Shown here: positions 3,280-36,112 of the stretch, piece by piece
How positions within the stretch are numbered: the first letter of the stretch is position 1
Layout: every line of letters begins with the position of its first letter
Virus record (IMG/VR): IMGVR_UViG_3300007623_000006
Coordinates: 47,097 to 111,096 of that record
Strand: one strand, 5' to 3'
From: a virus
DNA length: 64,000 bases
Position numbers and translations under genes: made by a program
Notes under the pieces: model-generated
Databases searched by the model: none
What the model saw: only the letters and a program-made list of their open reading frames with translations
What the model was told of the DNA's origin: nothing

Positions 3280-3280
3280 T

Positions 3281-18749: not shown

Positions 18750-18760
18750 GGAGCTAAATA

Positions 18761-20086
18761 ATGGCATTTCAAGCAGATGTGTTGGTAGCAAATAAAGTGA
18801 TTTATAAATCAAATGATATATTATCAGGAACTAGAGAAGTATCTCAAATGGTTTCTGATAATCTTGTTATTATTGATAGTGACTCACTTACAGGTACTAA
18901 TGACACTAATACAATAACAAATATTTCTGATGAGATTTTATCAGGAACTTTGTATATCGATGTTACATTAGATATAAATGCTTCATCCGCAGATTACACA
19001 AATGTGATAAAAGTTAATGGATTTAATCCTTCATTTATTGAAAGTAATGATAATACTATTAAATTCATTTCAAATAACACTAATATTAATGCGTTTGAAA
19101 TTATTTCAACTGGTGCTTATACAATAACAGAAGTTAATGTTTCAAGAAATTATAATAATATTAAATTAACTTCTGATTATGTTAGTTTACCATATACATA
19201 TAATAAAGTTAAACAAGAAAACTGGAAAATTATAAGGTCTAGTGCAAAAATAGATTATGACAATTCTTTTACAGAATTATTAAATGTCTCTTTAAATGAA
19301 AATTTATTAACAAATGATGTAACTCTTTTAAAAGGTGATGTCATATCTATTGATAAAGAAACATTTACTTATGTTTCATATATAAATTCATTAGGTGAAG
19401 CAGTATTAGATAATATTAGTAATATTCATGATGGTGTAACTGAAAGTGAATTTACAAAACAAGATGTATATAAAATTAATTTTTTAAAAGATTATAGAGA
19501 TGATACATATGAGTATGGTTTAAAAAGTGCTTTACTTAATCAAGAAGTAAGTGGTAATATAATATATGGTGCTATGGGTGATGAGATTATAGTTGAAGCA
19601 AATGAAGGTGGTCAAATCGTTTTAGGTGAAATGTACACTACTGGTAATTATGGTAGTATAGATGCAACTGACCCATTTGAGATTCATGTAAGTGACGATG
19701 GTACTAATTGGAATAAGGTTTATGAAAATATAGCATTATTACAAACACCTAAAACACATTTTATGTCTGGTAGTGGAAGATATGTTAAGATAGTGTTTAC
19801 AAATGAAACTAACGGTTGGGGAAGAATACAAACAAATTCAGTTAACGGTAAGTTTTGGAATTTAAGTATAGTTCATCCAGAAAGTAAATTATATAAGTTT
19901 TTACCGTCTTTAAGTGTTAATGGGACAAAAGTAATACCGGATTATGTAGATTATTTTAATGATTATTCTATTAAAACTGTAAAGTATCCAATGACAATTA
20001 TTGATGATTTTGAGATTACAATAGATTCAAATCTAATCACTAATATAGAAAATGAACTTTGGTATGAAATTGTGGGGGTAGTATAA
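18761..20086 (+). CDS. structural protein with discoidin-like C-terminal region, 441 aa
   Basis: An adaptor-type N terminus is followed by beta domains. The segment around residues 265-370 (FEIHVSDDGTNWNKVYEN, then YVKIVFTNETNGWGRI) follows the pattern of F5/8-type C (discoidin) carbohydrate-binding modules. A short C-terminal domain ends in WYEIVGVV. It overlaps the next gene by one base. Carbohydrate binding is inferred from the pattern; no catalytic motif is visible. Confidence 0.65.
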   Translation: MAFQADVLVANKVIYKSNDILSGTREVSQMVSDNLVIIDSDSLTGTNDTNTITNISDEILSGTLYIDVTLDINASSADYTNVIKVNGFNPSFIESNDNTIKFISNNTNINAFEIISTGAYTITEVNVSRNYNNIKLTSDYVSLPYTYNKVKQENWKIIRSSAKIDYDNSFTELLNVSLNENLLTNDVTLLKGDVISIDKETFTYVSYINSLGEAVLDNISNIHDGVTESEFTKQDVYKINFLKDYRDDTYEYGLKSALLNQEVSGNIIYGAMGDEIIVEANEGGQIVLGEMYTTGNYGSIDATDPFEIHVSDDGTNWNKVYENIALLQTPKTHFMSGSGRYVKIVFTNETNGWGRIQTNSVNGKFWNLSIVHPESKLYKFLPSLSVNGTKVIPDYVDYFNDYSIKTVKYPMTIIDDFEITIDSNLITNIENELWYEIVGVV

Positions 20087-21063
20087 TGACAAGTGAATTA
20101 ACTAATAGATTATTTAGAGTTGATGAAATTGACCTAAATAGTCTATTATACAACGGAGTTGAAATATCTAATTATAGAATTTCATCTGAAATAGAAAGTG
20201 AGTCATATAGTGATATCGTAGGTGACTATAGAGTAGAAATAACACCAAGTATGTTTGATGAAAATGGTGTTTGTGAGTTTAAAAGAAGTGCATTATTACC
20301 TGATATAAAAGGATATCAGTTTGTGTCTAAAGATACATATGTAACAGCTGATTTAGAAGCTGATATTGACTATTATGTAGCTCCAAATGGTAGTGATACA
20401 AATCATGGTAGGTCAAGAGATTACCCAAAGAGAAGTATAAATACAATTCCAACAGGTTCAAAAATAATGTTACTTAATGGTTCATATAGTGCTACTACAC
20501 TTATGAAAAGAGATACTAATGGTGTAACAGAAACAGAAAGATACTGTACATACACATTAATAGGTGAAACTAAAAATGGTGTTACTGTAAATTGCACTCA
20601 GTATTTTTATGACTCATATTATAATGGTTCTCTTGAAACTACATACAGAGATATGTACAGATTAAATTTATATAACTTTACTATTAGGTTCACTGCTAGT
20701 ACAGGTTATATCAGTTACCCGTATTATTATAATACTGGGGTTTACAGATATATATATTCATATAATATGAGATACATAGCTACTAGTTCTATTAGTATGT
20801 TTACCAGACAAACATCTAGATGGAGAAGTTATGAATATAATTCAACATATGTAAACACTTCTAGAGTATCTTATGGTTACTGGTATAATTATACAGATTC
20901 ACAATATGATTATTCTCCAATTTCTACAAATTATACTCAACCGTTGTTTACTATAAATGGGAATTCAGAAAATGATAATTATTATGATATTAAAGACAAT
21001 AAACTCACTATAAATACAACAAACACAGATTTTAAAAAAATAACTATAGATTTATGGGTATAG
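20086..21063 (+). CDS. tyrosine-rich beta-helix-like structural protein, 325 aa
   Basis: The first 100 residues resemble the N-terminal adaptor of neighbouring proteins. From about residue 95, YYVAPNGSDTNHGRS followed by YPKRSINTI matches the entry of right-handed beta-helix (pectate lyase-like) proteins. The rest is extremely rich in Tyr, Ser and Asn. Polysaccharide-binding or -cleaving tailspikes often have this fold, but no catalytic residues can be assigned. Its start overlaps the preceding stop (TAATG). Confidence 0.65.
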   Translation: MTSELTNRLFRVDEIDLNSLLYNGVEISNYRISSEIESESYSDIVGDYRVEITPSMFDENGVCEFKRSALLPDIKGYQFVSKDTYVTADLEADIDYYVAPNGSDTNHGRSRDYPKRSINTIPTGSKIMLLNGSYSATTLMKRDTNGVTETERYCTYTLIGETKNGVTVNCTQYFYDSYYNGSLETTYRDMYRLNLYNFTIRFTASTGYISYPYYYNTGVYRYIYSYNMRYIATSSISMFTRQTSRWRSYEYNSTYVNTSRVSYGYWYNYTDSQYDYSPISTNYTQPLFTINGNSENDNYYDIKDNKLTINTTNTDFKKITIDLWV

Positions 21064-21072
21064 GAGAATAAA

Positions 21073-21336
21073 ATGAAAATTTCTAAAGTAGGAAAAGAGA
21101 TAAAACCAGGGTTTTACAAATCAACATTTAGGAGTACACCAATAGAAGGTGATACACCTAAAATGAAAATTAGGTATGAAATTGAACAGAAAATATCAGA
21201 TGAAGATTATGACATTTATGATATTGTTGCTGACCTTGCTAATGCATTCAATGAATTAAAAGATGGTGTAACTGATGGTCCTGCTATGGTTAAGTGGAAT
21301 GAAAGACAGTCAGCTATAAAAGAAATCATAAAATAA
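21073..21336 (+). CDS. small module partner protein, 87 aa (paralogue of the gene at 35828)
   Basis: A conserved core of the form F-K/R-S/A-x-G-T-P-K-M-K-I/V-R-Y-x-I-x-Q-x(6)-D and a helical half starting with IVADLANAFNELKDG match the 94-aa protein at 35828-36112, which also sits between two fibre-like genes. The family probably links or chaperones the large appendage proteins beside it. The function is not known. Confidence 0.7.
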   Translation: MKISKVGKEIKPGFYKSTFRSTPIEGDTPKMKIRYEIEQKISDEDYDIYDIVADLANAFNELKDGVTDGPAMVKWNERQSAIKEIIK

Positions 21337-21346
21337 GGTTGTTAAA

Positions 21347-22093
21347 ATGTCAACTTTAAAAGTAAACCAGATAAATTTAAAAAAACTTATTATTTCTGGT
21401 AAAGAATATAGACCAATTTCAAATGATACAATTACATCTGATACATTTTTAAGCGACTATAAAATTATTAAAACTGATTATGATTTATTTGAGAATGGAA
21501 TATATACATATAATATAGACAGAGGTTCAGAAGATTTAGATATATTAAGATATATTATCAAGACCACAAATTATATACAAGAGTATGATGTTACATATAT
21601 AGATGACTATACATTTAGTTTTGATAATACATATATGGTATTAGAAAAAGATATGTATTTGTATGCTGACTATGGATTGAATAGAATTAAAGAAATTGAT
21701 GTAGATGGTAATATAAGTACGGTTACTCTATATGAAAAAGTTAACCAAAAATATAATATAATAGAGCCTGTATTTGAACCTTTAGTTGATGGTAAAAGAC
21801 AATCTGTTGTAAACATTTACAGAGATACTGATTACATATATGTTATGTATGATTTTTCTTATTCTACTATAACCAACAGTTTTAGTGTAACAACTACAGA
21901 AAATTTTTATAGATTTGAGTTAGATTTATATTCAGTTATAGATGAAACTAGATTAACTGTTCAATGGAACGATATTATAAATAATGATAATATAGATATA
22001 ACATCTTCTATTCTTGTTGGGAATGAATATGTTATATTACAAAACGGACAAAAATTAACACTGGATGAAACATCTAAGTGGTTAGTAAATTAA
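21347..22093 (+). CDS. structural protein, 248 aa
   Basis: An all-beta acidic protein whose opening (a Q-I-N-L-K-K-L-I-I-x-G segment) resembles the adaptor starts of the 325-aa and 441-aa proteins upstream. It is rich in Tyr and Asp, with no cysteine or enzyme motif. It follows the 87-aa partner by ten bases. Tail or baseplate appendage is the best guess. Confidence 0.6.
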   Translation: MSTLKVNQINLKKLIISGKEYRPISNDTITSDTFLSDYKIIKTDYDLFENGIYTYNIDRGSEDLDILRYIIKTTNYIQEYDVTYIDDYTFSFDNTYMVLEKDMYLYADYGLNRIKEIDVDGNISTVTLYEKVNQKYNIIEPVFEPLVDGKRQSVVNIYRDTDYIYVMYDFSYSTITNSFSVTTTENFYRFELDLYSVIDETRLTVQWNDIINNDNIDITSSILVGNEYVILQNGQKLTLDETSKWLVN

Positions 22094-22103
22094 GGGGTAG
22101 AAT

Positions 22104-22355
22104 ATGAAGAATTTTGCAGTAGATACACAACTTGAAACTATTGAATTGGGTAATGATTCGTTACAATTTCATGAAATGGTTAAAATGGTTGACGGTAAAC
22201 TGATGACAGTTAATGGTAATACAATAATTATAAACAGTTTAATTCAGGACAGACTTAGTGTAAGTGATGATGGTACAACATTACTTTTTGATGGTGCACC
22301 TATAAAAGCAGAATTAAGTGCTGCTGAAATACTTGCAGATTTACCACAAGCCTAG
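22104..22355 (+). CDS. small unknown structural-region protein, 83 aa
   Basis: Not recognised. Short beta-type protein with a repeated hydrophobic-polar pattern and a C-terminal helix ending in ILADLPQA. It has a good ribosome binding site (GGGG at 22094-22097) and sits 11 bases after the previous stop, so it is co-transcribed. Confidence 0.65.
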   Translation: MKNFAVDTQLETIELGNDSLQFHEMVKMVDGKLMTVNGNTIIINSLIQDRLSVSDDGTTLLFDGAPIKAELSAAEILADLPQA

Positions 22356-22366
22356 GAGGATTATAA

Positions 22367-22624
22367 ATGTCAATTGATAGAAAATCTGAAGTTGTTTTCA
22401 ATGAGAATGGTGTTAAATTTGTAAAAAACACATTTGTTGATGCACCGAAGAATTACACAAGAAAAGAAGCTAGAAAGAGAAAGGGTATGTTAGATACATA
22501 TTCTATCGAACAACAGCTTAATGTTATGAGAAAGGCAATTTTAACGATTGCTGAAAACGAAAATATAGATTTACCTGAACTTGAAGCAATTGAAAATCTT
22601 GCTACAGAACTTGGTATTAAATAA
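22367..22624 (+). CDS. small helical protein, 85 aa
   Basis: Not recognised. The N-terminal third is beta-like and basic (NYTRKEARKRKG); the remainder is a leucine-rich helix pair (IEQQLNVMRKAILTIAE, then acidic). The stop overlaps the late promoter variant that precedes the A/B array, so it closes the preceding operon. AGGAGG precedes the ATG. Confidence 0.65.
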   Translation: MSIDRKSEVVFNENGVKFVKNTFVDAPKNYTRKEARKRKGMLDTYSIEQQLNVMRKAILTIAENENIDLPELEAIENLATELGIK

Positions 22625-22627
22625 ATA
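22620..22627 (+). promoter_or_regulatory. late promoter variant AATAAATA before the A/B array
   Basis: AATAAATA overlapping the stop of the 85-aa gene, 27 bases before the first A-family gene. It is the only such motif in the first seven kilobases of the array, so it may drive all ten genes up to 29.9 kb. Confidence 0.5.
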
Positions 22628-22654
22628 TAATAGATTAAATAGGAGAAAATAAAA

Positions 22655-23170
22655 ATGAAAATTTCTAACTTTTTTGGAATTAGTTATCACTTTACACCTA
22701 GAGTGTTAAGTAATATTAACGAAACTACTGCAAGTCTTGTAGAGACTGTTACACAAGAGGGTAATAAGATTTTATTCTTTGACGGTGATATGCCAGCTGA
22801 TGATGATTTATATGGTATTTTAAATGAAATTCAATTAAGAGAAGCATACACACCAATAATGGAAGTGACTGATTTACAGTTTACATATACATATACAAAA
22901 TCAACAAAGAAAAAACTGATTAAAAAATTACCAGTTGATGCATTAGATTTAGTATTTACAGGTGATGGTACAATTGGTTGGGCTGCAGTTATTTTAACAG
23001 GTGATGGAAGTGTATCTGACGATATTATTTTATTTACTGATTCAATTGGTCAATGGGGTGATGATAATATGCCTATTATTATCGACAAATACACTGGTGT
23101 AACTGGTGATAAAAATGTATTTAAAGATTTCTCATTAATCTTAAGAGATACATCAAATAACGAAGCATAA
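22655..23170 (+). CDS. A-family array protein A1, 171 aa
   Basis: First of five paralogues (22655, 24000, 25458, 26598, 31885). Shared features are an N-terminal F-x-G-x(3)-F-x-P segment, a strand F-F-x-G-x(2)-P followed by L-Y-x-I, a central DGTIGWAAVIL-type strand, a F/Y-T/S-DSIG motif and an end of the form LKDF-x-L-x-L-x-D. The fold looks like one compact beta domain. No known family was recognised. Each of the first three copies and the last is followed directly by a B-family gene. Probably a virion component; the role is unknown. Confidence 0.75.
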   Translation: MKISNFFGISYHFTPRVLSNINETTASLVETVTQEGNKILFFDGDMPADDDLYGILNEIQLREAYTPIMEVTDLQFTYTYTKSTKKKLIKKLPVDALDLVFTGDGTIGWAAVILTGDGSVSDDIILFTDSIGQWGDDNMPIIIDKYTGVTGDKNVFKDFSLILRDTSNNEA

Positions 23171-23181
23171 GGAGTCACAAA

Positions 23182-23970
23182 ATGAAAGTATTAGTAAACA
23201 AGACATTTAACACTGAATATTTTTCAGAGTATTTAAATACAACATTAAAACCAAATTCAAAGGTATTTTCTTCAGGTGAGTTTAAAATATATGATAACGC
23301 AACTACAGGAACAACAGTTGTAGACGGAGTTTTTCCTCAAGTATTATTCGCACCTCAATCTTATTTAGATATTATTGATGCATTAAATACAGCTTCATAT
23401 AATAATACATTAGACCTAGCAGGTTTATCATTTGATTTAGTTATAAACACATTATACGCAACAGACAGAACATCAAGAAATTATATGATTGATTACTTAT
23501 TAGGTTTAGGTTTATGTAGTGCAACACAAGCATCACAAGCAAAAAACTTAGTTTCTGTTTTAGGTTCTTTTGACCCTGCAAATATTTTAGTAGAATACAA
23601 CTCAGTTGATGATGTATATTCTTATTCATTTAATACACCAGTTGAATTATTACAGCCGTATGATGTTTCTAACAATGTTGGTGAAAGTGGATTATCAGAA
23701 AAATTATATTTAGTGATGTTAACTCAAATATCTACTGCATATGGTGATGTTCTTAATGTTAATGGTGGAACTGGTTCATATTCTCCTGTTCATAAATTCT
23801 ATAACCCAGTTTTAGACACAACTGTATTACAGTCATCTTATATTGCAACAGAATTAGGTGATATTAATGACACTGAATCAAACCCAGATTTAAAATATGA
23901 CCATATGGATAAAATTGATTATATAGATAGTTTTAGAATGAGATTCAAACTTCCAAGAGTTATCGCATAA
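23182..23970 (+). CDS. B-family array protein B1, 262 aa
   Basis: First of seven B-family paralogues. All begin with a short strand of the form x-V/I-N-K-x-F-N-x-x-Y/F-L, have a helical middle with a L-x-x-G-x-x-T/S-x-x-E/Q-A motif, and end with Y-I/V-A-x-x-(8-15)-D-Y-I-D-x-F-x-(5)-L-P-R/K-x-I. B1 shows the ending DYIDSFRMRFKLPRVIA. No catalytic pattern or signal peptide is visible. It starts 11 bases after A1, so the A and B products may act as a pair. Confidence 0.75.
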   Translation: MKVLVNKTFNTEYFSEYLNTTLKPNSKVFSSGEFKIYDNATTGTTVVDGVFPQVLFAPQSYLDIIDALNTASYNNTLDLAGLSFDLVINTLYATDRTSRNYMIDYLLGLGLCSATQASQAKNLVSVLGSFDPANILVEYNSVDDVYSYSFNTPVELLQPYDVSNNVGESGLSEKLYLVMLTQISTAYGDVLNVNGGTGSYSPVHKFYNPVLDTTVLQSSYIATELGDINDTESNPDLKYDHMDKIDYIDSFRMRFKLPRVIA

Positions 23971-23999
23971 TAGCGACAAACTCTTAGGAGGGTTTAATT

Positions 24000-24500
24000 A
24001 TGGAAATAATAAACGGATATAATGGTGGCTTAAGAGTTACTCCACAAGATTGTTATGTTAGTTCAAATAATTTTGAAACATATAATGTATCTGGTGGTAG
24101 TAATAAGATTTATTTTTTTACTGATAAAAGTATAATTGATAATAATGTATTATACAATATAAACGATGAAGCTGATTTATTAAGTACATTCTCTGAAAAT
24201 TATGTTGGTTCTATTACAGGTTTTGGTTTAGATTTTTTATATAATACTAGTTTAAAGAAGAGAATAATTAAACAAAATCCTATTGATGCATTAAGATTTA
24301 CAAACGAAATAAATGGAACAATAGAATGGTGTGCTATAAGAGTAGCTACTGGTAAGTTTATTTTTTCTGATGAAATTGGTACATTTGATGTACCGTCATC
24401 TGTTAATTTAAATCAAACAAATGTAACTGCCGGTGATGAAAGTATAATGAATAGTCTAAAGTTTGAAATAAGAGATTTATCTGATGGAGAGTTGGTATGA
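24000..24500 (+). CDS. A-family array protein A2, 166 aa
   Basis: The most diverged A copy. It keeps the central strand (IDALRFTNEINGTIEWCAI) and the SDEIG variant of the DSIG motif, and ends with LKFEIRDLSDGELV. The N-terminal F-x-G-x-x-F-x-P segment is altered to YNGGLRVTP. AGGAGG precedes the ATG. The stop overlaps the B2 start (ATGA), so pairing is tight. Confidence 0.7.
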   Translation: MEIINGYNGGLRVTPQDCYVSSNNFETYNVSGGSNKIYFFTDKSIIDNNVLYNINDEADLLSTFSENYVGSITGFGLDFLYNTSLKKRIIKQNPIDALRFTNEINGTIEWCAIRVATGKFIFSDEIGTFDVPSSVNLNQTNVTAGDESIMNSLKFEIRDLSDGELV

Positions 24501-25447
24501 TTAGTATTAATAAAAATTTAGATTTACTTAACTCTGAATATGTATTTCAAAAGAACTCTATTGGAATGGATTATTATGATTATCCTAATAATATAAAGTT
24601 TACAACATTTAAAGAGTTTAGATTTAGAGGGTATTATATTGGAGGTTCGTCTTCATCTTCAATGGCAGGTTCAAGTGTATCAATGACAGTTAGTGGCTTA
24701 AATGTACATACCAATGAATGGGAATCAATTGCTGCTTGTGTATATGTTTACACTCTAGTTTCAAACGCGTGGGGAGTATATTTTTATTTAAATGGTTCTA
24801 GACAAGGAACTAACACTGTTAAAAATGAAAATGGTAGAATTATGTGTGGGACTGTAGACTTGGGTAGTGTTGAGGATTATTCTGAATATAAAGCATCTAT
24901 ATCTTCTTCTAAGGGATATGTAGGTTTAAGTTATTTTGACGCTATTGCTGGTAATGTATCATCATTTATTTGCAATCAATCTACATTGAGTATGTTAGAA
25001 TCACTTAATACTAAATTATACCAAGGAAATGTTGAAAATTATAGTACAAAATTCATACAAGATAATGATATTATAAAAGAATCTATGTTACAGAATGGTG
25101 ATTTGTCTGAAGAAGATAATAATTCTATAAAAATTTATAAAAAGAATGTTAATTTAATACATGAATTTGACTCGGACAATTGTTCTAATAAATTGATACT
25201 ACCTACCCCTCTTTTGCTTGACGTTACATATATTGAATCTGATGGACCATTTTATTTAATTTATTTAGTTCCAAAAACTATAATTAGAGAAGATAATAGT
25301 GAGAGTATAACTCACTTAAGTTATATGAAATTTAAAATTGGTTCAATTGATGACGATACGGCCGATATAAAATTAGATTATATAAATATAATAGATATGA
25401 TAGATAAACTTTCAATGAATGTTAAACTATCAAACATAATAAATTAG
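24497..25447 (+). CDS. B-family array protein B2, 316 aa
   Basis: Diverged and longer B copy. The N-terminal strand is ISINKNLDLLNSEYVF; residues 45-140 hold an extra Ser/Gly-rich beta segment not seen in B1. The C-terminal end (YMKFKIGSIDDD, then DYINIIDMIDKLSMNVKLSNII) keeps the family pattern. It overlaps A2 by four bases. Confidence 0.7.
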   Translation: MISINKNLDLLNSEYVFQKNSIGMDYYDYPNNIKFTTFKEFRFRGYYIGGSSSSSMAGSSVSMTVSGLNVHTNEWESIAACVYVYTLVSNAWGVYFYLNGSRQGTNTVKNENGRIMCGTVDLGSVEDYSEYKASISSSKGYVGLSYFDAIAGNVSSFICNQSTLSMLESLNTKLYQGNVENYSTKFIQDNDIIKESMLQNGDLSEEDNNSIKIYKKNVNLIHEFDSDNCSNKLILPTPLLLDVTYIESDGPFYLIYLVPKTIIREDNSESITHLSYMKFKIGSIDDDTADIKLDYINIIDMIDKLSMNVKLSNIIN

Positions 25448-25457
25448 GAGAGAATTT

Positions 25458-25967
25458 ATGAGAGTATTAAACTTTTATGGTACAACATCGTGTTTTGTAC
25501 CACAGAAAAATTCTTCTCTGCCGTTAGTAGAAGTAAACGCTACATATACAGGGAACAAAATGGTATTCTTTAAGGGTACTATTCCTTCGGTAGATGAATT
25601 GTATGAAATAATGTCAGAGGATGAACTAAGAATTACATATGGAGCAGATATAGTTGCAGATATTGATGGTCTTGAGTTTTCATACACACAAGATAATACA
25701 AATTTAAGAAGAACTATTGCTAAAAAAGCAGATGTTAAAGATTTACCTTACTTACAAGACGGTACAATCACATGGTGTGCAATTATTTTAAGAGAAGATG
25801 TTGCTACTACAGGAAAAAGTGCTATAATATATACTGACAGTATAGGTCTTAGAGAACAAGATGATAAATTTATTACACTTGAATCTATTACAGGTTTAGC
25901 AAATGGTACAAACTTATTAAGAGACTTTTCTATGATATTAACTGAAAAGTCAACTATGGAGTCATAA
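25458..25967 (+). CDS. A-family array protein A3, 169 aa
   Basis: A typical A copy with NFYGTTSCFVPQ at the start, FFKGTIPSVDELYEI, DGTITWCAIIL, YTDSIGL and LLRDFSMILTEKS in the family order. One base separates its stop from B3. No additional domain is present. Confidence 0.75.
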   Translation: MRVLNFYGTTSCFVPQKNSSLPLVEVNATYTGNKMVFFKGTIPSVDELYEIMSEDELRITYGADIVADIDGLEFSYTQDNTNLRRTIAKKADVKDLPYLQDGTITWCAIILREDVATTGKSAIIYTDSIGLREQDDKFITLESITGLANGTNLLRDFSMILTEKSTMES

Positions 25968-25968
25968 T

Positions 25969-26583
25969 ATGTTAGCAGTAAATAAATTTTTTAATAATAA
26001 TTATAATAAAGTTTTATTAACACATTTTGTTGATAATAATGTGTCTGATGGTATGTATCTAGTTACAGGTGAATTTCTTGACATGATAGATTTGTTAAAT
26101 TCTACTGAATATAATACTGGATTTACAAGTGAGCATGGTACTCTTGTTCAAGTAATTGAAGGTTTATTTAGAGGAAATATAACAGCTCAACAAATGTTAG
26201 ATGAAGGTCATATAACAGATACTGATGGAATTCAAAGAAGACAATTTGCTGGTTACAGTAGTTCTTATAAAACTACATTATATGACGACAATGACGGTGT
26301 TATGAAAATAGTATACACACAGCCATTATCAATCACACCAGGTTTTTATAGAAACGAAGTTGACGGAACTGTTAATAGTGATTTATATATTGTATTCTTT
26401 AATAATACTACTTGTAGTTACTATAAACCAAGTGATAATTCAAACAGAATTATGACATCATATGTTGCATTTAGTGTTACAGAACAAGGTATGGGTGGTG
26501 ATATTGAACTAGACCATACAGATTTAATTGATTATTTGGATGCATTTGAAATTCAAGTTGCATTACCAAAAGAAATAGTATAA
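25969..26583 (+). CDS. B-family array protein B3, 204 aa
   Basis: The shortest B copy; it lacks much of the N-terminal half found in B4-B6. It has the AVNKFFNNNYNKVLL start, the helical middle, a segment with SDLYIVFF and the ending YVAFSVTEQGMGGDIELD then DYLDAFEIQVALPKEIV. The compact size shows which parts are core to the family. Confidence 0.75.
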   Translation: MLAVNKFFNNNYNKVLLTHFVDNNVSDGMYLVTGEFLDMIDLLNSTEYNTGFTSEHGTLVQVIEGLFRGNITAQQMLDEGHITDTDGIQRRQFAGYSSSYKTTLYDDNDGVMKIVYTQPLSITPGFYRNEVDGTVNSDLYIVFFNNTTCSYYKPSDNSNRIMTSYVAFSVTEQGMGGDIELDHTDLIDYLDAFEIQVALPKEIV

Positions 26584-26597
26584 GAGGAGTTTTATAA

Positions 26598-27149
26598 ATG
26601 AAAGCAAGTAATATTTTTGGAATGGCGTTTCACTTTATGCCAAGAGATTTGAGTGCAAGAAGTTCAGATACTGAAATTAGAAGAGGTGAAAATATAGTTA
26701 CACAAAATAATGTAATTTATCTTATGACAGGTGTTATGCCAGATACTGATACTTTATATGATATTAATAATATGGATGAGTTTGAGGCTGCATATGGTTC
26801 ACAACAAATTTCTAAATTTGAAGATAATGAGTTCACTTATTATTATGATAGATTAAAAAAGATTAGAACTATTCAAAAAACAGTTGACGCATTAAATTTT
26901 ACACACGATGTAGATGGTGCTGTTACATGGTTTGCAGTTAAGATGACAGATGTAGATGGTGTTCAGTACGCTGAAGATGGTGTGACTGAAGAACAAACAT
27001 TTATATTTAGTGACAGTGTTGGTACATGGTTAGATACTGATAGAGCAATGGTGCTTTCAAATAAAGAATCACAAGTTGCTGGTTCTGAAAATATTTTAAA
27101 AGATTTCGTATTAGTTATTCAGGATAAATTAACTGACGAAACTGTATAA
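26598..27149 (+). CDS. A-family array protein A4, 183 aa
   Basis: A longer A copy with NIFGMAFHFMPRDLS, MTGVMPDTDTLYDI, DGAVTWFAVKM, FSDSVGTW and LKDFVLVIQDKLTDE in order. The extra 12 or so residues lie between the central strand and the DSVG motif. It is followed by three consecutive B genes rather than one. Confidence 0.75.
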   Translation: MKASNIFGMAFHFMPRDLSARSSDTEIRRGENIVTQNNVIYLMTGVMPDTDTLYDINNMDEFEAAYGSQQISKFEDNEFTYYYDRLKKIRTIQKTVDALNFTHDVDGAVTWFAVKMTDVDGVQYAEDGVTEEQTFIFSDSVGTWLDTDRAMVLSNKESQVAGSENILKDFVLVIQDKLTDETV

Positions 27150-27161
27150 TAGGAGTTAATT

Positions 27162-28352
27162 ATGTCAAGGTTAGTTATTAATAAGAATTTTCAAAAGAAA
27201 TATCTTAGTACTGCTTATAAAACACTAGTTGCTCCTGATGTTCCTATGCACATTTATGGGTATGAACACCCAAATGCTGGGTATAGAGGTTATTTTTATT
27301 TTGCATATACTAATGTACATGAGTTTTTGGATAGGTTGGATTATATACATAATTCTTCATACATTGAATATAACAATTATAGTTCTCCTAATGCATACTA
27401 TAGACTATTAGACGCGTTTAATGGTTCATATTGGTATGGGATTACTGGTTCGGCGGTAAGACAAGATACAGGCCTCCCAAGTAATTTATTTTTAGTAAAT
27501 GAAAGTGTGCTAAAAGTTATAGATAAAATTAATATAAAGTTAAGAGAAGGTTTAGATACATTACCAAAGGTAACAGATTATTATGCAAATTATTCTATAT
27601 CATCTTTAAGTGAAGAAGACCAAAATATATTTATGTCAAAAGAAATAAATCCGTATTGGTTAGGTCAGACATTTTTATCAAATGATAAGTCTATAAGACA
27701 TAGTGCATTTCAAGCATTTGCATATATTGGTGTAATAACAGAAGAAGAAGCAGACTTAATGAATAATATGTTTATTAGAATAAAAAAATATAGTTCTGTT
27801 GAAGATAGAAGTACTTTACTTTTTGGTGAATCTTTTATGAGGTCAGACGAGTACAACTTAGAATACAATGCTGAATCTAACACAATTGATTATGAATTAC
27901 AATCTACTGAATCTGTATATAAAGTTTGTGTTGAGAATGAGTACGATAATCTAGTTAATAATGGTTATGTTCAAAGTGTTAACAACCCTCTAAATGAACA
28001 ATTATATATAATAGATTTTGCTTATAATGACCATAAGTTTGATAGAACTAACCATGACTTTGGTACTACAGATTATTATTATGTATATAATAATAGTATT
28101 TCGTCTACTACAAGACTTGTATATAGTCATGGTGGAAGTGCTGTTGTTGATTTATATTCTGCAGCGTATTTAAAGACACCAATTAGAAAATTTTATAATG
28201 AACAAAATGGAAAAGTAGTTCCGCAGTTATCTTATATAGCATTGTCTGTTTCGGAAACTGGTCAAGGTGCTGATATTGAATTTGATAAAATAGATGAGAT
28301 TGAGTATATTGACAATCTTAAATTTAGATTTAGAATACCAAAAGAATACTAG
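27162..28352 (+). CDS. B-family array protein B4, 396 aa
   Basis: The largest B copy. It starts with RLVINKNFQKKYLSTAY and keeps the family ending (YIALSVSETGQGADIEFD, then EYIDNLKFRFRIPKEY), but has about 130 extra residues in the middle, rich in Tyr, Asn and Ser. Two internal segments resemble the helical middle of the family, so it may contain a partial internal duplication. Confidence 0.75.
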   Translation: MSRLVINKNFQKKYLSTAYKTLVAPDVPMHIYGYEHPNAGYRGYFYFAYTNVHEFLDRLDYIHNSSYIEYNNYSSPNAYYRLLDAFNGSYWYGITGSAVRQDTGLPSNLFLVNESVLKVIDKINIKLREGLDTLPKVTDYYANYSISSLSEEDQNIFMSKEINPYWLGQTFLSNDKSIRHSAFQAFAYIGVITEEEADLMNNMFIRIKKYSSVEDRSTLLFGESFMRSDEYNLEYNAESNTIDYELQSTESVYKVCVENEYDNLVNNGYVQSVNNPLNEQLYIIDFAYNDHKFDRTNHDFGTTDYYYVYNNSISSTTRLVYSHGGSAVVDLYSAAYLKTPIRKFYNEQNGKVVPQLSYIALSVSETGQGADIEFDKIDEIEYIDNLKFRFRIPKEY

Positions 28353-28361
28353 GAGATTAAA

Positions 28362-29090
28362 ATGGCAAACATAGTAATAAATAAGAATTTTAATAAGAAG
28401 TATCTTTGGAGATATGTCGACCAAACATTTAAAATAAAAACAACATACAGTAGATGGATTATAACTAATGATACATTAGATGCAACAGGAATAAACAGTT
28501 CATATAGAACTGTATTCTTGACAAATCAGACTACATTATCATTATTTGATAAAATATCTTCTCACTATAAAAACATTGATATGGGAGATTTACAAGCATA
28601 TGATTTTTTAAGTACAATAATCAATACAATGTTACAAACAGATGACGATACATATTACATTAGAGCAATGGACAAACTTGTAGCAGACGGCGCATTGACA
28701 CAAGAAGAAGCTAATTCAATATATGTTAATAAATTAACAGATGTTGTTTCTATTAATGCATCTGTTAATATTGACGGTGTTATATCATTTAGTATAATTG
28801 AACCTAACAAACTGTATAGAAGATACGAGCAAACTGTTGATAACCCTACTAATGAACAAATGTATTTATGCTTTATTCCAGAAGAGAGTGGGTATTTTAT
28901 AGGGTCTAACTATTATTCAACTCTATATCATACTGCAGTTGAAAATGAAAATGTTAAACAAAGTTTAAGATATGCTGCTATGTCTATTGGTGACACTGGT
29001 ACTGAAGATATCGTGTTTGATTATACTGGTATAATTGATTATTTAGATACATTTGAATTTAATATTAATCTTCCAAGAGTAATCTCTTAG
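28362..29090 (+). CDS. B-family array protein B5, 242 aa
   Basis: It starts with IVINKNFNKKYLWRYVD, very close to B6 (TVNKNFNKKYLYRYTE) and B4. The helical middle holds DGALTQEEANS, and the end is DYLDTFEFNINLPRVIS. No A gene separates it from B4 or B6. The close N-terminal similarity of B4-B6 points to recent tandem duplication. Confidence 0.75.
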   Translation: MANIVINKNFNKKYLWRYVDQTFKIKTTYSRWIITNDTLDATGINSSYRTVFLTNQTTLSLFDKISSHYKNIDMGDLQAYDFLSTIINTMLQTDDDTYYIRAMDKLVADGALTQEEANSIYVNKLTDVVSINASVNIDGVISFSIIEPNKLYRRYEQTVDNPTNEQMYLCFIPEESGYFIGSNYYSTLYHTAVENENVKQSLRYAAMSIGDTGTEDIVFDYTGIIDYLDTFEFNINLPRVIS

Positions 29091-29100
29091 GAGGGTTGAT

Positions 29101-29871
29101 ATGAGACTAACAGTTAATAAAAATTTTAATAAAAAATATCTTTATAGATATACAGAATTGTTTTTTAACCAGCCAGAATTAATAACATATCATACAGGTT
29201 CATCATCTATGATATTTAGACATCCATCTATAATTTTTTCAGATTATAAAAATGACACTACAACTACAGAATGGGCATATTACAGATTTATTTGTAATCA
29301 AGATTTTATAGATGTTATGGATATAGTTAATAATATGGACAATCCAAAAAGTTATATAATTAATCAAACGCTTGTTTCTGGTAGTGATATATATAGAGAC
29401 GCAATGCTTCAGCAATTATTTGATGATAATATTATAACACAATCACAAAGAGAAAATAGTAAATTTTATCCGATTTACGGTGCACATGATTATTTATCTT
29501 CATTTAAATATAATGAAGAAAAAAATGATATTTATGTTAATTATTCACATAATACGATTTTTTCACTTGATTATAAAATAGATAATAACATCGAAGAAAA
29601 TTTATTTTTTGTATATCTTTCTAGAACAACTCCTATGTTTAGTGAAAATAAAGATTACAGTTTTCAAGTAGCTGCATATGGTGCACCTTATCATGATGTT
29701 GTTGTTCAAAGAGGTGTTGGGTTTGAGAAAAATGACGGTTCTACTAAAACTGTCGTTCCATATATAGCATTAGATATGAAATCAGACCTTGGGTTTGATT
29801 ATATTGATAAGATTACACATATAGATAATTTTTCATTTAACATTAATTTTATAAAAGAGTACACTCTTTAA
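29101..29871 (+). CDS. B-family array protein B6, 256 aa
   Basis: Last B copy before the oxygenase. The N-terminal 16 residues nearly match B5; the C terminus (YIALDMKSDLGFDYIDKI, then HIDNFSFNINFIKEYTL) is a diverged version of the family ending in which LP is replaced. After its stop there is a middle-type promoter, so the long array transcription unit may end here. Confidence 0.75.
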   Translation: MRLTVNKNFNKKYLYRYTELFFNQPELITYHTGSSSMIFRHPSIIFSDYKNDTTTTEWAYYRFICNQDFIDVMDIVNNMDNPKSYIINQTLVSGSDIYRDAMLQQLFDDNIITQSQRENSKFYPIYGAHDYLSSFKYNEEKNDIYVNYSHNTIFSLDYKIDNNIEENLFFVYLSRTTPMFSENKDYSFQVAAYGAPYHDVVVQRGVGFEKNDGSTKTVVPYIALDMKSDLGFDYIDKITHIDNFSFNINFIKEYTL

Positions 29872-29884
29872 TTACTTTTTAAAA

Positions 29885-29907
29885 TTTAAGTGAACTTATG
29901 TTATACT
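29885..29907 (+). promoter_or_regulatory. middle-type promoter TTTAAG-N11-TATACT for the oxygenase operon
   Basis: TTTAAG at 29885-29890, 11 bases, then TATACT at 29902-29907, preceded by TG one base upstream. The start codon of the oxygenase is 27 bases downstream. It is the only promoter of this class inside the late structural region, which suggests that the oxygenase and its partner are made earlier than the surrounding virion proteins. Confidence 0.6.
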
Positions 29908-29934
29908 AAACATATTTTCACTTAAAGGCTCATA

Positions 29935-30747
29935 ATGTCAAACACAAACGACATAAAACTATACAACACAGATGAAATTTTCGCATTAAATCCTGATATG
30001 AATATTAATATTGTTAGTGCTGACGGTAAGCCAATACTTATTATAGATGATTTTTATAAAAATCCTGATTTAGTTAGAGATTTAGCAATAAACACCCCAA
30101 TACCTTCAACTAACCGGTCATATGCGTCTGGATATCCTGGTAAAAGAGGGTTATTAGGCGGTTTTATTGATAATAAACAATTTTATGAAAAAGTCAGTGA
30201 TATACTTTTAAAAAGCTTAGATATACACCATTTTGTTAAGGAAGGTACTATTTTAGACAATGGTGGTGACTTTATTGTAAATGTATTTGATAGTGAAGAG
30301 AATATATCAAATGAGAATAGATTTACCTTACCACATACTGACCCTAGTTTAGTTGCATCAGTTATATATTTAAACAAAGAGGATGAAGACCCGGTAGGAA
30401 CTGGTATATATAAACATAAATCTGGATATTCTTTCAAACCAAACAATGACGCACACTTATTTTGGATATGTAAACAAGAAGATGATTTACCACACAATTA
30501 TATGGAAGGTTTACAAACAGTAATAAAATCAATTGACTTAGCTGAAAAACAAGGTAACCATGTATTAGATGGTAACGATGAATGGGAATGTATTGCTCGT
30601 TCAACTGGTGCTTATAATCAATTTATAGGGTATGTTGCAGGTATGTTTCATTCACCATTAATAGACTACAATATATTTAAAGACAAAAATTATAAGAGAA
30701 TTAACCAAGTTATTTTTTGGGACCCAAGCAGGAGATATAATAAATGA
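29935..30747 (+). CDS. 2OG-Fe(II) oxygenase-like protein (DUF6445-like)
   Basis: A 270-aa protein whose layout follows DUF6445 proteins of the 2-oxoglutarate/Fe(II) oxygenase superfamily: DDFYKNPDLVR (about 38-48), SGYPGKRG, iron ligands in LPHTDPS (His134, Asp136) followed by VIYLN, GTGIYKHKSG, and a distal FHSPLID (His239) with Arg255 as the likely 2OG-binding residue in RINQVIFWDP. Relatives hydroxylate amino acid side chains or halogenate; the substrate here is unknown. Its stop overlaps the next start (ATGA), a strong sign of joint expression with the U32-like protein. Good ribosome binding site (AAAGG). Confidence 0.75.
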   Translation: MSNTNDIKLYNTDEIFALNPDMNINIVSADGKPILIIDDFYKNPDLVRDLAINTPIPSTNRSYASGYPGKRGLLGGFIDNKQFYEKVSDILLKSLDIHHFVKEGTILDNGGDFIVNVFDSEENISNENRFTLPHTDPSLVASVIYLNKEDEDPVGTGIYKHKSGYSFKPNNDAHLFWICKQEDDLPHNYMEGLQTVIKSIDLAEKQGNHVLDGNDEWECIARSTGAYNQFIGYVAGMFHSPLIDYNIFKDKNYKRINQVIFWDPSRRYNK

Positions 30748-31856
30748 TAACAGATATCAAAGAAATTGAAACATATTCGTGGACAACACCATATCACAAG
30801 GAAAAGGGTGCTTTTAGTATACCATATTATTCAGGTATAACACACCCTGAAATGAATTTTGACCATAATTTTGAAAGTTTTTTAGATGAATACAGTGATT
30901 GGATTCATGACATATATTTTACACCACCAACAGTTCTACCATTTGAGAATGATTCAATGGGAATGGGTAAACAAATGACTGACGATGAAAAAGATGCAGT
31001 ACTTGATAAATTGTTAGGTTACCAAGAAAAATATGGTATTCCAATTTCAGCAACATTTAATGATACAAGTATTTTAAAAACTGAAAAGCAACTGAAACAG
31101 TTTATTGAAAACTTCCGACCACTATACGAAAAAGGGGTTAGAAACATTACACTTGCTCCAGTTATATGGATGTTAACTGGTGAGATTAAAAAAGCATATC
31201 CAGACTTATATATTAAGAATACTGTATTAACAAGAGTTAGAGACGGACAAATGTTTTGGGACCACGCTGAAGCAGGGTTTGATTATATTAACATTGATAG
31301 AGAGTTAATGAGAAATGAAGATGGATTAAAAAGTGTTAAAAAAGCACAATTAAAATTTTATGAAGAAACTGGTAAATATATTCCAATTGCTTTACTAGCA
31401 AATGAGAGTTGTAGAGGTAAATGTCCGGTAATGGATGAACATTATCATTATAACCAAAACAGTCATAAAAATGATAATGTACCTTATTTTGGTACACCAA
31501 TATCACAATTCACTTGCCCTCATTGGCAAAAAACGGTACCTGGATATGTATTAAAGCAAGCAAACTTTGTACCACTAAATAGTCAAATAGACTGGGTTAT
31601 GCAATATATCGATGTATTTAAGATGCATGGTAGAGCAACACCAGACTTAATGATGAATAGTTTAGGATTTATTAATGAATTTATTAGAGATGATGGTATC
31701 GAAATTCCATTTGAACCTGAATTATACACAAAATGGTTAAAAGTTATTAAAAACTGTAAATTTCAATGTTATGATTGTAATTTATGTGGTCAGGTCGAGG
31801 ATTCAATAGAAAAAACAAACCAAAAATACTTAATTAATCCTACATTATTTCATTAA
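30744..31856 (+). CDS. U32-peptidase-like Fe-S protein, possible O2-independent hydroxylase
   Basis: A 370-aa protein with TIM-barrel-like rhythm. Residues 160-240 resemble the U32 core: a strand KNTVLTRVRDG, then GFDYINIDREL, and ALLANESCRGKCPVMDEH. Seven cysteines (223, 227, 258, 338, 342, 345, 348) form clusters CxxxC, a lone Cys in FTCPHW, and CxxxCxxCxxC, well able to hold a 4Fe-4S cluster. U32 relatives such as UbiU/UbiV, TrhP and RlhA carry out hydroxylation without oxygen; others are called peptidases. The spacing is not identical to theirs. Four-base overlap with the oxygenase suggests a shared substrate. Confidence 0.6.
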   Translation: MITDIKEIETYSWTTPYHKEKGAFSIPYYSGITHPEMNFDHNFESFLDEYSDWIHDIYFTPPTVLPFENDSMGMGKQMTDDEKDAVLDKLLGYQEKYGIPISATFNDTSILKTEKQLKQFIENFRPLYEKGVRNITLAPVIWMLTGEIKKAYPDLYIKNTVLTRVRDGQMFWDHAEAGFDYINIDRELMRNEDGLKSVKKAQLKFYEETGKYIPIALLANESCRGKCPVMDEHYHYNQNSHKNDNVPYFGTPISQFTCPHWQKTVPGYVLKQANFVPLNSQIDWVMQYIDVFKMHGRATPDLMMNSLGFINEFIRDDGIEIPFEPELYTKWLKVIKNCKFQCYDCNLCGQVEDSIEKTNQKYLINPTLFH

Positions 31857-31859
31857 AAG

Positions 31860-31867
31860 TATAAATA
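31860..31867 (+). promoter_or_regulatory. T4-type late promoter motif TATAAATA
   Basis: Exact TATAAATA directly after the U32-like gene and 17 bases before the A5 start. It restarts late transcription for the last A/B pair and the genes beyond it. Confidence 0.6.
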
Positions 31868-31884
31868 TCGTAAAAAGGGTTGTG

Positions 31885-32397
31885 ATGTTCACTTCAAATT
31901 TTTACGGTATTCCTTATTACTTAATGCCAACACAAAACCCAATTATCAATACAGGTACTCAACCTAGTACAATCGCAGAAGATAATGTTTGGTTGTATTT
32001 TTTTAGTGGTGTTATGCCTGAATCATATGTATTATCTGACATCACCAACTTAGGGGAACTTATAGCATTTTACAACCCAGTATCTGTTGTACCCGACTTA
32101 ACTATGGAGTATCGATATGATACAGATGTTAAGCAAAAGCAAATGTCAATCTTATTAGAAGAACCTTTAACTGCATCATTTAGAAAAAATGGAGTAGTTT
32201 CATGGATGGCAGTTGTAGGAAGACTTGATGAAACAGATGACACTAGATTTATGTTTTTTAGTGATGGAATTGGAAGTGTAGATGAAAAATACAAACCTGT
32301 TATAATAGATAACTTTAATGGTGTTATTGGTGAAGAGTACAATATATTAAAAGTTGACTTTATTATAAGAGATTTACCTAGTAGTGAGATTATATGA
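31885..32397 (+). CDS. A-family array protein A5, 170 aa
   Basis: Last A copy, separated from the others by the hydroxylase genes. It retains NFYGIPYYLMP, FFSGVMPESYVLSDI, KNGVVSWMAVV, FFSDGIG (Gly replaces Ser of DSIG) and LKVDFIIRDL. A GTG three bases upstream could also start translation; AAGGG at 31875-31879 fits this ATG better. Its stop overlaps the B7 start. Confidence 0.75.
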   Translation: MFTSNFYGIPYYLMPTQNPIINTGTQPSTIAEDNVWLYFFSGVMPESYVLSDITNLGELIAFYNPVSVVPDLTMEYRYDTDVKQKQMSILLEEPLTASFRKNGVVSWMAVVGRLDETDDTRFMFFSDGIGSVDEKYKPVIIDNFNGVIGEEYNILKVDFIIRDLPSSEII

Positions 32398-33149
32398 GAT
32401 TAGTAGTTAACAAAAAAACAAAAAAAGAATTATTCACACATTTAACTGACATTATATTTCCTACAGACGACTACTGGTTATCTGATACTATATCGGTTTA
32501 TACTGACTTAAGCACAAGCACCTCAACTGAAAATGTACCATATCAACTATTCTTATGGGTACCTGAAACTTTTATTGAAACACTTGAAATTATTAATACT
32601 ACAGTAAGAGAAAACAAGATAAACATAGGTGTTGATTTAGGTTTATTTTTTAATACACTTTACTTTGGTGGTGATACTAGTAGAATAGGTGCATTAAACT
32701 TATTAGTGGAAAAATATATAATAACAGAACAGAACCGTAATACAATTATAAGTCTTTTTTCACATTTTACTAATTTTGACCCTAATTTCTTTTATAGGGA
32801 ATTTGATAAATCAATAGATAGATACAAGTATTATTATAGTGGAACTATGGGCTTAAAAAACACATATAAAATTGCAAATAACTTGACATTAGATAAAATG
32901 TATGTTATAATACCTGTATTAACACCAATTAGTTTTAGTGAAACTGGGCCAATACCAGGTACTAATGGTTTATATAGTTCAATTATACCACTTTATTCTC
33001 CTAAACTAGGAAGATTAGTTAGTCATTGCTCATATATGGGTCTAGAAGTAACAGAGATAGACGAGAACTTCTTTTACTCTGAAACTGAAACTTACACGCA
33101 ACTTAAACCTTTTGAGTGGTATATGACAATTCCTGATACGGTTGTATAA
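32394..33149 (+). CDS. B-family array protein B7, 251 aa
   Basis: It starts with RLVVNKKTKKELFTHLTD and carries the helical middle (LVEKYIITEQNRN). The C-terminal region (CSYMGLEVTEIDE, then WYMTIPDTVV) is the most diverged of the family. It overlaps A5 by four bases and the next gene by one, so the A5-B7 pair leads straight into the RCC1-propeller module. Confidence 0.75.
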   Translation: MRLVVNKKTKKELFTHLTDIIFPTDDYWLSDTISVYTDLSTSTSTENVPYQLFLWVPETFIETLEIINTTVRENKINIGVDLGLFFNTLYFGGDTSRIGALNLLVEKYIITEQNRNTIISLFSHFTNFDPNFFYREFDKSIDRYKYYYSGTMGLKNTYKIANNLTLDKMYVIIPVLTPISFSETGPIPGTNGLYSSIIPLYSPKLGRLVSHCSYMGLEVTEIDENFFYSETETYTQLKPFEWYMTIPDTVV

Positions 33150-33976
33150 TGGAAGAAATATTAGATAAAATAACATCTTTAATAAGTGAAGATGAAGATA
33201 AATTTTATACAAATCTAGCAGCTCATAAAAGTGGGTTTGATACAGATTACAAAGAAATTATATCAAAATACCTATTACATAAAGATATAGTAAAAGAACA
33301 CATATTTAAACAAAAACCACACTTAGCAAAGGGGTTTGTTAAAAGCGAAGGTAAGTTAGATAAGTTTATTAATCACATACCTGTAGTACATAATTTAGAC
33401 TTATATGATGATAGTGTTATAAGGGCAGATTTAAATAGTAATAACTTACACTTATATGCTCAAAAGTTTAATATTTTAAGTGATTTAACAAAAGAAAAAT
33501 TTTACTTATTAATTGAGTTGAGTAATATAAGTGTTGTTATTAATAACGATTTAAGAATACCTGTTAAATACCTAAAACCTAACTGTACTATATTGTATAT
33601 TAATTATATGGCAAATAAACCAGACTTTGAAGATTTCTTAAGCCAATTTGATAACTCAAAATATATACTTCAAAATTATCATCACTTAAAACACCCTAAC
33701 ATAACATCATATGTTATGAGATATGTAACAATGATAACAAAAGAAAGTTTAGAAAATCTTATAAATGTAGGATTCACATTAAGAGATATATTAACACATA
33801 GACCACAATTTTTACCATTATCATTGGATTATATAAATACAATAGATGATTTAAAAATTGTTTTAAAATGTGTCGACACAACAACATCTGTAGAAGTAAT
33901 AAACCATTTATATACCAAACTACCACATTTTAAAACAATTATTGATGAAAGAATAAAAAGGTTGATGAATGGCTAG
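33149..33976 (+). CDS. unknown protein, 275 aa
   Basis: Not recognised. A mostly helical basic-acidic protein, unlike the beta-rich neighbours, with regularly spaced helices in its second half (LENLINVGFTLRDILTH, then IDDLKIVLKCVD) that could be a helical-repeat scaffold. No enzyme motif is visible. It overlaps both neighbours by one and eight bases. An assembly chaperone for the following propeller protein is possible but unsupported beyond position. Confidence 0.7.
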   Translation: MEEILDKITSLISEDEDKFYTNLAAHKSGFDTDYKEIISKYLLHKDIVKEHIFKQKPHLAKGFVKSEGKLDKFINHIPVVHNLDLYDDSVIRADLNSNNLHLYAQKFNILSDLTKEKFYLLIELSNISVVINNDLRIPVKYLKPNCTILYINYMANKPDFEDFLSQFDNSKYILQNYHHLKHPNITSYVMRYVTMITKESLENLINVGFTLRDILTHRPQFLPLSLDYINTIDDLKIVLKCVDTTTSVEVINHLYTKLPHFKTIIDERIKRLMNG

Positions 33977-35831
33977 TATATATGATTTTTATGATGTTAC
34001 TGATAATGTGTTTGTAATAAACTCAGACGAATATGACACAATTGTATTTAGAAGCCTATTAGATGATGAATTATCTTTAGATAGTAGTAGGCCTGATTTA
34101 ATATTTGACGATATAAGAAACGACGATATATACGATTATTTTTATAAACTAAACACTTTTATTGATTCTAGACAAGACAACTTTACAACTTTACCATTAG
34201 ATAAAATTGAGAGAACAGGTAGTAGCTATTCTGTACTAATGACAAATGATGGTGATGTTCAGTGGCAAAAGTTAGCAAAACCAATCACAGGTACAATCCG
34301 ATTAAGTGACACAGTTGACCAAAGTCTTATATTTTTTGATAATACTTTAGTTGAAGGTTCATTCTCGTTGTTAGAAAACTTAACAATTGACGCACACACA
34401 TTTTTGGGTAACTTTACTAGAGCAAGAGCATATACACCGACATATTATCAAGACTATGGTGAAACAAATTGGAATTCAGCAGAAATTAAGATTAATGGTA
34501 AATTTGAGGATGTATGCGATACTTTACCTGACAAGTCAGACTATGCAAATGGTCAATTAACATTTATATCAAAAAATAGCACAATAGACGAAATGTTAGA
34601 TTTAACAGTTATAGATGTAGATGGAAATGATGTTAAAGTAAGTGGCGTTAATAGTAAGTTAGAAATCGCTAAAATAAACAATGTTAGAAAAACAATTTGT
34701 GCTTCTAGATACGACATTTCGGCAATTGACAGTGATGGTAACATTTTAATATGGGGTAGTTATACATCATCATATTATCAACCACCTATTAATGCTAGTG
34801 CTTTTACAAGCATAAATGCAGGTTACTATGGTTTTACTGGAGTAACTGATGAGAACAAAGTGTATGTATGGGGTAAAAATAACCTTTTTGTTAAGTATTT
34901 AATTGACACCATTCCAACTGGTAATGATTATATTGATAGTGATATGGGATTAAACTTTTGTGTCGCTTTAAAAGAAGATGGGACTTTACAGCATTGGGGG
35001 TATACAACATATTTATCACAAAGTATGATACCAGATAAAATATTCACAAAGCATGTATGTGCATATAAAATATTATTTGCTCTTGATAGTGATGGTTATT
35101 TAGGTGCGTATGGAAAGTATGATTTTTATAAACTTATGGCAAACTTACCAAAAGAAAAAATAATAGATTTTGATGTTAGATACTCTACTGGAGTATATTT
35201 AAGAGATGACGGTACTGTAGGTCAATGGGGTAATGTTACAGGGTTCACTATACCAGATTTTGGTGGTAAAACGATTGTTAAAGTATTTGCTGGTAAAGTT
35301 ACTTTACACGCATTAGCAGATGACGGTACACTTTTTTCATGGGGTGATTGGTACACATATAACAATACACCTGAAAACATATCATGGGGTGATGTATGTG
35401 GTCATAATTATGTTAGTGCTGGAATTGATACAAGTGGTAACATTTATACTTGGGGTAGAGACAGTTTATCTACATACGATAGTTATATGGTAAATAAAAA
35501 ACCTGACACAGATGGTATTATAAGTGGAAAAGTAGTTTCAGGGTATGAATACGACATCACATTAGAAAGTGGTATATCAGTAGGTGACATATATCTTGTA
35601 TCATCGAACTTATATTATACTGAAACTGAAGATACTACAAACATTGAAGACTACATACTTTTACCAAAAAAAGAAGTTACAATGGATGGTACTGAATTTG
35701 TTATTACTTATGATAAATTAGATATAAATACAAATGCTATAGGTCTATTATATGAATTTAATAACAGATTAGAAAGAGTGTATAAAATACAAGTAGACCT
35801 AACTAAGTCTGCTTTAGGAGAAGATGTATGA
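33969..35831 (+). CDS. RCC1-type beta-propeller virion protein, 620 aa
   Basis: After an adaptor-type N terminus (about 110 residues) and a linker domain, residues about 235-515 hold seven repeats with the RCC1 signature, an alpha/beta turn ending in a W/Y-G: IWGSYTSS, VYVWGKNN, LQHWGYTT, LGAYGKYD, VGQWGNVT, LFSWGDWY and IYTWGRDS. That predicts a seven-bladed propeller. A beta-rich domain follows. Propellers on phage tails can mediate binding. The gene overlaps the preceding one by eight bases and the next by four. The sister protein is at 37044. Confidence 0.75.
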   Translation: MASIYDFYDVTDNVFVINSDEYDTIVFRSLLDDELSLDSSRPDLIFDDIRNDDIYDYFYKLNTFIDSRQDNFTTLPLDKIERTGSSYSVLMTNDGDVQWQKLAKPITGTIRLSDTVDQSLIFFDNTLVEGSFSLLENLTIDAHTFLGNFTRARAYTPTYYQDYGETNWNSAEIKINGKFEDVCDTLPDKSDYANGQLTFISKNSTIDEMLDLTVIDVDGNDVKVSGVNSKLEIAKINNVRKTICASRYDISAIDSDGNILIWGSYTSSYYQPPINASAFTSINAGYYGFTGVTDENKVYVWGKNNLFVKYLIDTIPTGNDYIDSDMGLNFCVALKEDGTLQHWGYTTYLSQSMIPDKIFTKHVCAYKILFALDSDGYLGAYGKYDFYKLMANLPKEKIIDFDVRYSTGVYLRDDGTVGQWGNVTGFTIPDFGGKTIVKVFAGKVTLHALADDGTLFSWGDWYTYNNTPENISWGDVCGHNYVSAGIDTSGNIYTWGRDSLSTYDSYMVNKKPDTDGIISGKVVSGYEYDITLESGISVGDIYLVSSNLYYTETEDTTNIEDYILLPKKEVTMDGTEFVITYDKLDINTNAIGLLYEFNNRLERVYKIQVDLTKSALGEDV

Positions 35832-36112
35832 TAAGAGTAGAAGAAACAACAGTACAAAATGGACCATTATTTACAAAAGGGTTTAAAGCAAAGTTAGATG
35901 AAGGTACAACTGACAAATTCAAAGTAAGATACCACATTGACCAAGAAGTTGGAGATGTTTTTGATTTGATTGCTGATATGTCTAAAATGATATGGTTATT
36001 AAATAGAAAAATAGATGGTACTACGGTTGAGGGTGATGTTGAACTTGAAGCCAAACTTAAAGATAGAATGGGTCAAATTGATAATATTCTAGCTACATAT
36101 TACAGTAAGTAA
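35828..36112 (+). CDS. small module partner protein, 94 aa (paralogue of the gene at 21073)
   Basis: It shares the G-F-K-A-K-L-D-E-G-T-T-D-K-F pattern, an R-Y-H/E-I-D/E-Q core and a helix starting with LIADMSKMIWLLN with the 87-aa gene. It sits between a propeller gene and the next fibre-like gene, as the other copy does between fibre-like genes. It overlaps the propeller gene by four bases (ATGA). Confidence 0.7.
   Translation: MIRVEETTVQNGPLFTKGFKAKLDEGTTDKFKVRYHIDQEVGDVFDLIADMSKMIWLLNRKIDGTTVEGDVELEAKLKDRMGQIDNILATYYSK

Follow-up and report, generated by a model that had tools for sequence, protein, structure and literature searches.

An array of alternating paralogous gene pairs in the tail-fibre region of a T4-like phage and its putative relation to phage garland proteins

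A fragment of a T4-like phage was found to carry an array in which five genes of one family (A) alternate with seven genes of a second family (B). The A proteins appear to be remote relatives of phage garland proteins, a relation newly proposed here and supported by several results, each of them modest. On balance, we think it probable that the array specifies late proteins that become part of the distal tail of the virion, with A forming a collar or sleeve around fibres or adhesins and B bound in or on this collar.

The DNA analysed, referred to as the window, is a stretch of 64,000 nt corresponding to positions 47097 to 111096 of the 111,096-base IMG/VR record IMGVR_UViG_3300007623_000006. 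Positions are given in window numbering unless the record or another locus is named. The window belongs to a 111-kb T4-like phage fragment, with T4-like structural genes in the remainder of the record. The gp23-like capsid protein encoded there shows 51% identity to its counterparts in the Va1 group of Vibrio phages and 46% to those in Campylobacter phages CP220/CP21.

Reading of the ORFs in the window gave the order A1-B1-A2-B2-A3-B3-A4-B4-B5-B6, two other genes, and A5-B7, all on the plus strand and all 12 intact, as described in the initial annotation. The array starts with A1 (22655-23170, 171 aa) and B1 (23182-23970, 262 aa), followed by A2 (24000-24500, 166 aa), which overlaps by four bases with the start of B2 (24497-25447, 316 aa), the most divergent B copy. 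A3 (25458-25967, 169 aa) precedes the shortest B, B3 (25969-26583, 204 aa), and A4 (26598-27149, 183 aa) is followed by three consecutive B genes, B4 (27162-28352, 396 aa), B5 (28362-29090, 242 aa) and B6 (29101-29871, 256 aa). The last pair consists of A5 (31882-32397, 171 aa), with a GTG start codon or an ATG immediately after it, and B7 (32394-33149, 251 aa), again with a four-base overlap.

Within each family the copies proved to be related. In leave-one-out searches against 32 proteins of the region, every copy was recovered by a profile of its siblings, with E-values of 6e-23 to 4e-49 for A and 1e-10 to 3e-28 for B, and the best non-member never fell under E 0.05. Pairwise BLASTP also linked the A copies, with E-values as low as 3e-25, and joined up the whole set of B copies, with values as low as 1e-18. 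Identity to A1 is 28-37% among the A copies, and identity to B1 is 21-26% among the B copies. Invariant positions in the alignments are G105, W109, A111, D129 and G132 in A and N6, K7 and Y220 in B. The B proteins have conserved ends (N-K-x-F-N-x-x-Y-L at the start, D-Y-I-D-x-F...L-P at the C-terminus) and a variable middle. The motifs proposed earlier are present in both families, but the DSIG motif of A reads DEIG, DSVG or DGIG in three of the five copies, and those of B, although common to the copies, are degenerate at the start in B2 and B7 and at the end in B7.

The divergence of the two families is paired. The similarity matrix of A correlates with that of the neighbouring B proteins, with r values of 0.75, 0.84 and 0.74 when B4, B5 or B6, respectively, is taken as the partner of A4; only 2, 1 and 3 of 120 permutations were as good. 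In addition, A5 is nearest to A1 and its partner B7 is nearest to B1. Together these observations are moderate evidence, based on five pairs, that duplication occurred as A-B units, with the extra copies B5 and B6 probably arising later, and they support the tandem amplification of pairs suggested in the initial annotation.

Searches of Pfam, NCBIfam and PDB sequences returned nothing for A. Two A copies gave a weak match to phrog_17152 (E 0.009 and 0.065); the match of the PHROG profile itself is also weak (E 0.004). In Erwinia phage Y3, three phrog_17152 copies (gp79, gp81 and gp83) alternate with the larger gp80, gp82 and gp84, and some 10 kb upstream of them lies a homologue of the phrog_21918 gene that is found upstream of the array in the window (14912-15415, plus strand); homologues of this gene sit upstream of A-like arrays in the jumbo phages. 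Alexandra, Yoloswag, JA29, SNUABM_7 and fHe-Yen9-02 were seen to have similar arrays. In Y3 the array is part of a long block (15779-28472 of the Y3 locus, gp78-93), with equivalents in the five other phages, in which small and large members alternate and all are annotated as hypothetical or membrane proteins. A profile was built from the A-like proteins of these Erwinia, Dickeya and Yersinia jumbo phages alone, and it ranked the A copies as the top five of 32 window proteins, in the order A4, A3, A1 (E about 7e-6), A5, A2. With hhalign, the jumbo A-like and window A profiles aligned with P about 2e-6, and none of 200 column-shuffled or reversed decoys was as good. The jumbo proteins share with A the profile family, the occurrence in two to three copies alternating with larger genes and the position downstream of the 14912-15415 homologue, and they are likewise without assigned function. 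They differ in that the partner genes (phrog_22190 and phrog_30594) precede the A-like gene and have no detectable relation to the B family of the window.

Garland proteins were reached through a fold search as well as through profiles. An AlphaFold2 model of A1 was of moderate confidence (pLDDT 62, pTM 0.66), and its first fold match in the PDB was 9rkv_A (E 0.25, TM 0.34), a weak match, insignificant alone. Sequence comparison identified 9rkv_A as the product (141 aa) of orf103 in Agrobacterium phage 7-7-1. Judged by its size and its place beside the long fibre gene, it is the garland protein described by cryo-EM under the name gp014 (PMC12796354; PDB 9RKV). This protein encircles the distal tail fibres at their tips with 36 chains and has counterparts in phage Milano (PMC12796354, PMC10811340). 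Seven garland-type proteins, taken from 7-7-1, Milano, OLIVR4 and Rhizobium phage RHEph12, were combined into a profile, which aligned with the window A profile at P 6.7e-4 (0 of 200 decoys as good), with the likeness extending over the conserved C-terminal half, and with the jumbo A profile at P 2.2e-4 (0 of 100 decoys as good). The garland proteins belong to the public family phrog_3758, whose single match in the whole fHe-Yen9-02 genome is a jumbo A-like gene (E 1.2e-4). The same profile found no match in the 111-kb record of the window phage at E≤1; assignment of A to phrog_3758 was rejected, since the profile does not detect A directly.

The resemblance extends to motifs and gene order. 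Like A, the garland proteins of 7-7-1 (orf103, orf105) and Milano (gp125, gp127) are small and contain a G-x-x-x-W/F strand, then a D-G/S-x-V/I-G turn, and a C-terminal end of beta structure. In both phages the paralogous copies are separated by an unrelated gene and lie after or beside the long fibre gene, as the A copies are split by B genes in a fibre-gene region. In RHEph12, three adjacent garland relatives follow a fibre gene and directly precede WD40/YVTN proteins. The A proteins are longer (166-183 aa versus about 141), are present in five copies instead of one or two, and alternate with B. Milano garland proteins are reported to have the fold of T4 gp8 and A511 gp105 and to form similar bead-on-string dimers (PMC10811340); those two proteins connect the baseplate wedge to the fibre network and differ in being located near the baseplate.

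The PHROGs category of phrog_3758 and of the phrog_1644 gene within the array is 'head and packaging', which would fit A and B being capsid decoration or head-fibre proteins on the virion surface. For phrog_3758 this category was assigned automatically and conflicts with cryo-EM, which places the garland protein at the fibre tips (PMC12796354), and the array itself is found among fibre and adhesin genes, remote from the record's T4-like capsid genes; a role on the head is therefore considered quite improbable.

The array sits within a tail-fibre/adhesin region. The surrounding block encodes an F5/8 domain protein (18761), two proteins with propeller-like RCC1 repeats (33969-35831 and 37041-38813), a fibre-assembly-like protein (38827) and a beta-helix protein (41062). 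The neighbours are fibre- or adhesin-like, and no single long fibre was identified among them. Two small paralogous proteins of 87 and 94 aa (21073-21336 and 35828-36112; E 5e-7) were also observed, each after a gene of the putative adhesin block.

Chaperones are often encoded by small genes next to those for fibres, and the protein at 38827 is a candidate, matching phrog_3304 ('L-shaped tail fiber protein assembly', E 4e-10). The A and/or B proteins could similarly be tail-fibre assembly chaperones, one set per fibre, that are absent from the virion. We give this little credence, given that A and B alternate with each other and not with fibre genes, and that garland relatives of A are present in virions: purified 7-7-1 particles contain gp103 and a second protein of 14.2 kDa listed as gp106 (PMC3517404), probably the product of orf105.

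The same neighbourhood could accommodate a reading in which each A-B pair is a separate receptor-binding adhesin, a tip or spike for a ligand of its own; the phage would then have several parallel receptor specificities and lack a garland. The copies are strongly divergent, the middle of B is variable, the array is placed among putative adhesins (RCC1, beta-helix and F5/8), and one of the large partner proteins in the jumbo phages has a weak match of the F5/8 type, a fold that often binds glycans. Against this, the A relatives of known location are structural collar proteins and not tips, and no lectin or enzyme domain was recognised in A or B, making independent adhesins unlikely in our view. 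Direct evidence was lacking for the receptor variety or antigen-like diversification suggested by the initial annotation. Neither switching nor diversity-generating elements were observed, and searches of viral contigs with A1, A3, B5 and the 1110-aa gene, or of GenBank phages with A3 and B5, yielded no sister genome with the array. Neither the A nor the B profile matched Va1, CP220, CC_R7 or cyanophage genomes, or any of the eight capsid-related IMG/VR fragments.

For B, no relatives were detected in Pfam, NCBIfam, PHROG and PDB sequence searches, nor with B5 in viral contigs and GenBank phages, and B is a new protein family. A model of B (pLDDT 60) gave no meaningful fold match and was too poor to use. 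Comparison of B with the large jumbo partners (phrog_22190, phrog_30594) was negative by hmmsearch and hhalign, with 9 of 99 decoys as good. The C-terminal stretch of B aligned with both the garland and the jumbo A profiles (P 0.05-0.14, just above 99 decoys), and the window A profile gave no alignment with that stretch; treating A and B as one family was unsupported by the profile comparison. In the jumbo phages, one protein per genome matches the profiles of both the small and the large family, which makes a shared history of B and A conceivable. The idea that B is related to A but has diverged strongly and gained insertions is a lead from these alignments and not a result.

The statement of the initial annotation that no family was recognised holds for B and fails for A. 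Its suggestion of a virion-surface role gains support for A from the remote garland relation and the position in the tail-fibre region; B is without a detectable relative. Neither outcome that would have spoken against it occurred, be it a single known non-structural family holding both A and B or a lack of relationship among the copies.

The two genes between B6 and A5 encode a DUF6445/phrog_1644 protein (29935-30747, plus strand; Pfam E 1e-11, PHROG E 6e-28), 2OG-oxygenase-like by eye, and a phrog_1458 protein with conserved cysteines (30744-31856, plus strand; PHROG E 4e-71). The pair is bounded on one side by a strong hairpin in the gap after B6 (29885-29926, plus strand; -16.8 kcal/mol, z -6.3), resembling a terminator or processing site, and on the other by TATAAATA (31860-31867, plus strand), 22 bases 5' of A5. 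In the simplest reading, the two genes are probably a cassette inserted into a continuous array. By its sequence likeness, TATAAATA is a candidate T4-late-promoter-like site. Its occurrences in the window show no excess over chance; among the plus-strand sites upstream of 53453, 5 of 12 fall in the 6% that is intergenic, a placing which AT-rich spacers may explain.

The cysteine pattern of the phrog_1458 protein is reminiscent of U32-type Fe-S enzymes, and no convincing solved relative was found. Relatives occur in 123 cyanophage records with a best identity of 37-38%, and in S-H25 the gene lies downstream of tail-fibre genes. At the loci retrieved with this enzyme, no A or B was present at E<0.5. 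At the start of the record there is a divergent homologue (E 1e-4; record positions 2670-3626), which itself has a close paralogue at record positions 973-1974. There, between record positions 973 and 7671, the two phrog_1458 relatives are interleaved with two mutually similar genes (1967 and 3623), and after them come three radical-SAM-like genes carrying CxxxCxxC motifs. A putative role of the enzymes of the array in modifying surface proteins is possible.

In the favoured distal-tail reading, A chains would pair and polymerise into a collar or sleeve around the several fibre and adhesin proteins of the phage. Each B, whose gene directly follows that of its A, would be held in or on this collar as a linker, an anchor or an exposed binding domain, docking through its conserved ends with the variable middle as the exposed part; hetero-oligomerisation of A and B is plausible. 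Duplication of the A-B unit would have given the five A and seven B variants, and the collar could then be heteromeric. A more elaborate version has all five A and seven B chains in one ordered or variable collar round the fibre tips, each pair setting a position or a ligand and B being a new fold family, with unrelated groups (T4-like and jumbo enterobacterial phages) having amplified the same collar with different partners; this version we regard as rather doubtful.

Cryo-EM descriptions of garland proteins are so far limited to a few phages. If the proposed reading is true, the garland may be a widespread and expandable part of the host-contact machinery, encoded in T4-like and jumbo phages by alternating arrays of several copies that are now annotated as hypothetical, and B would be a new family of virion proteins. 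Specific gene pairs can now be named in culturable phages, for example gp79-84 of Y3.
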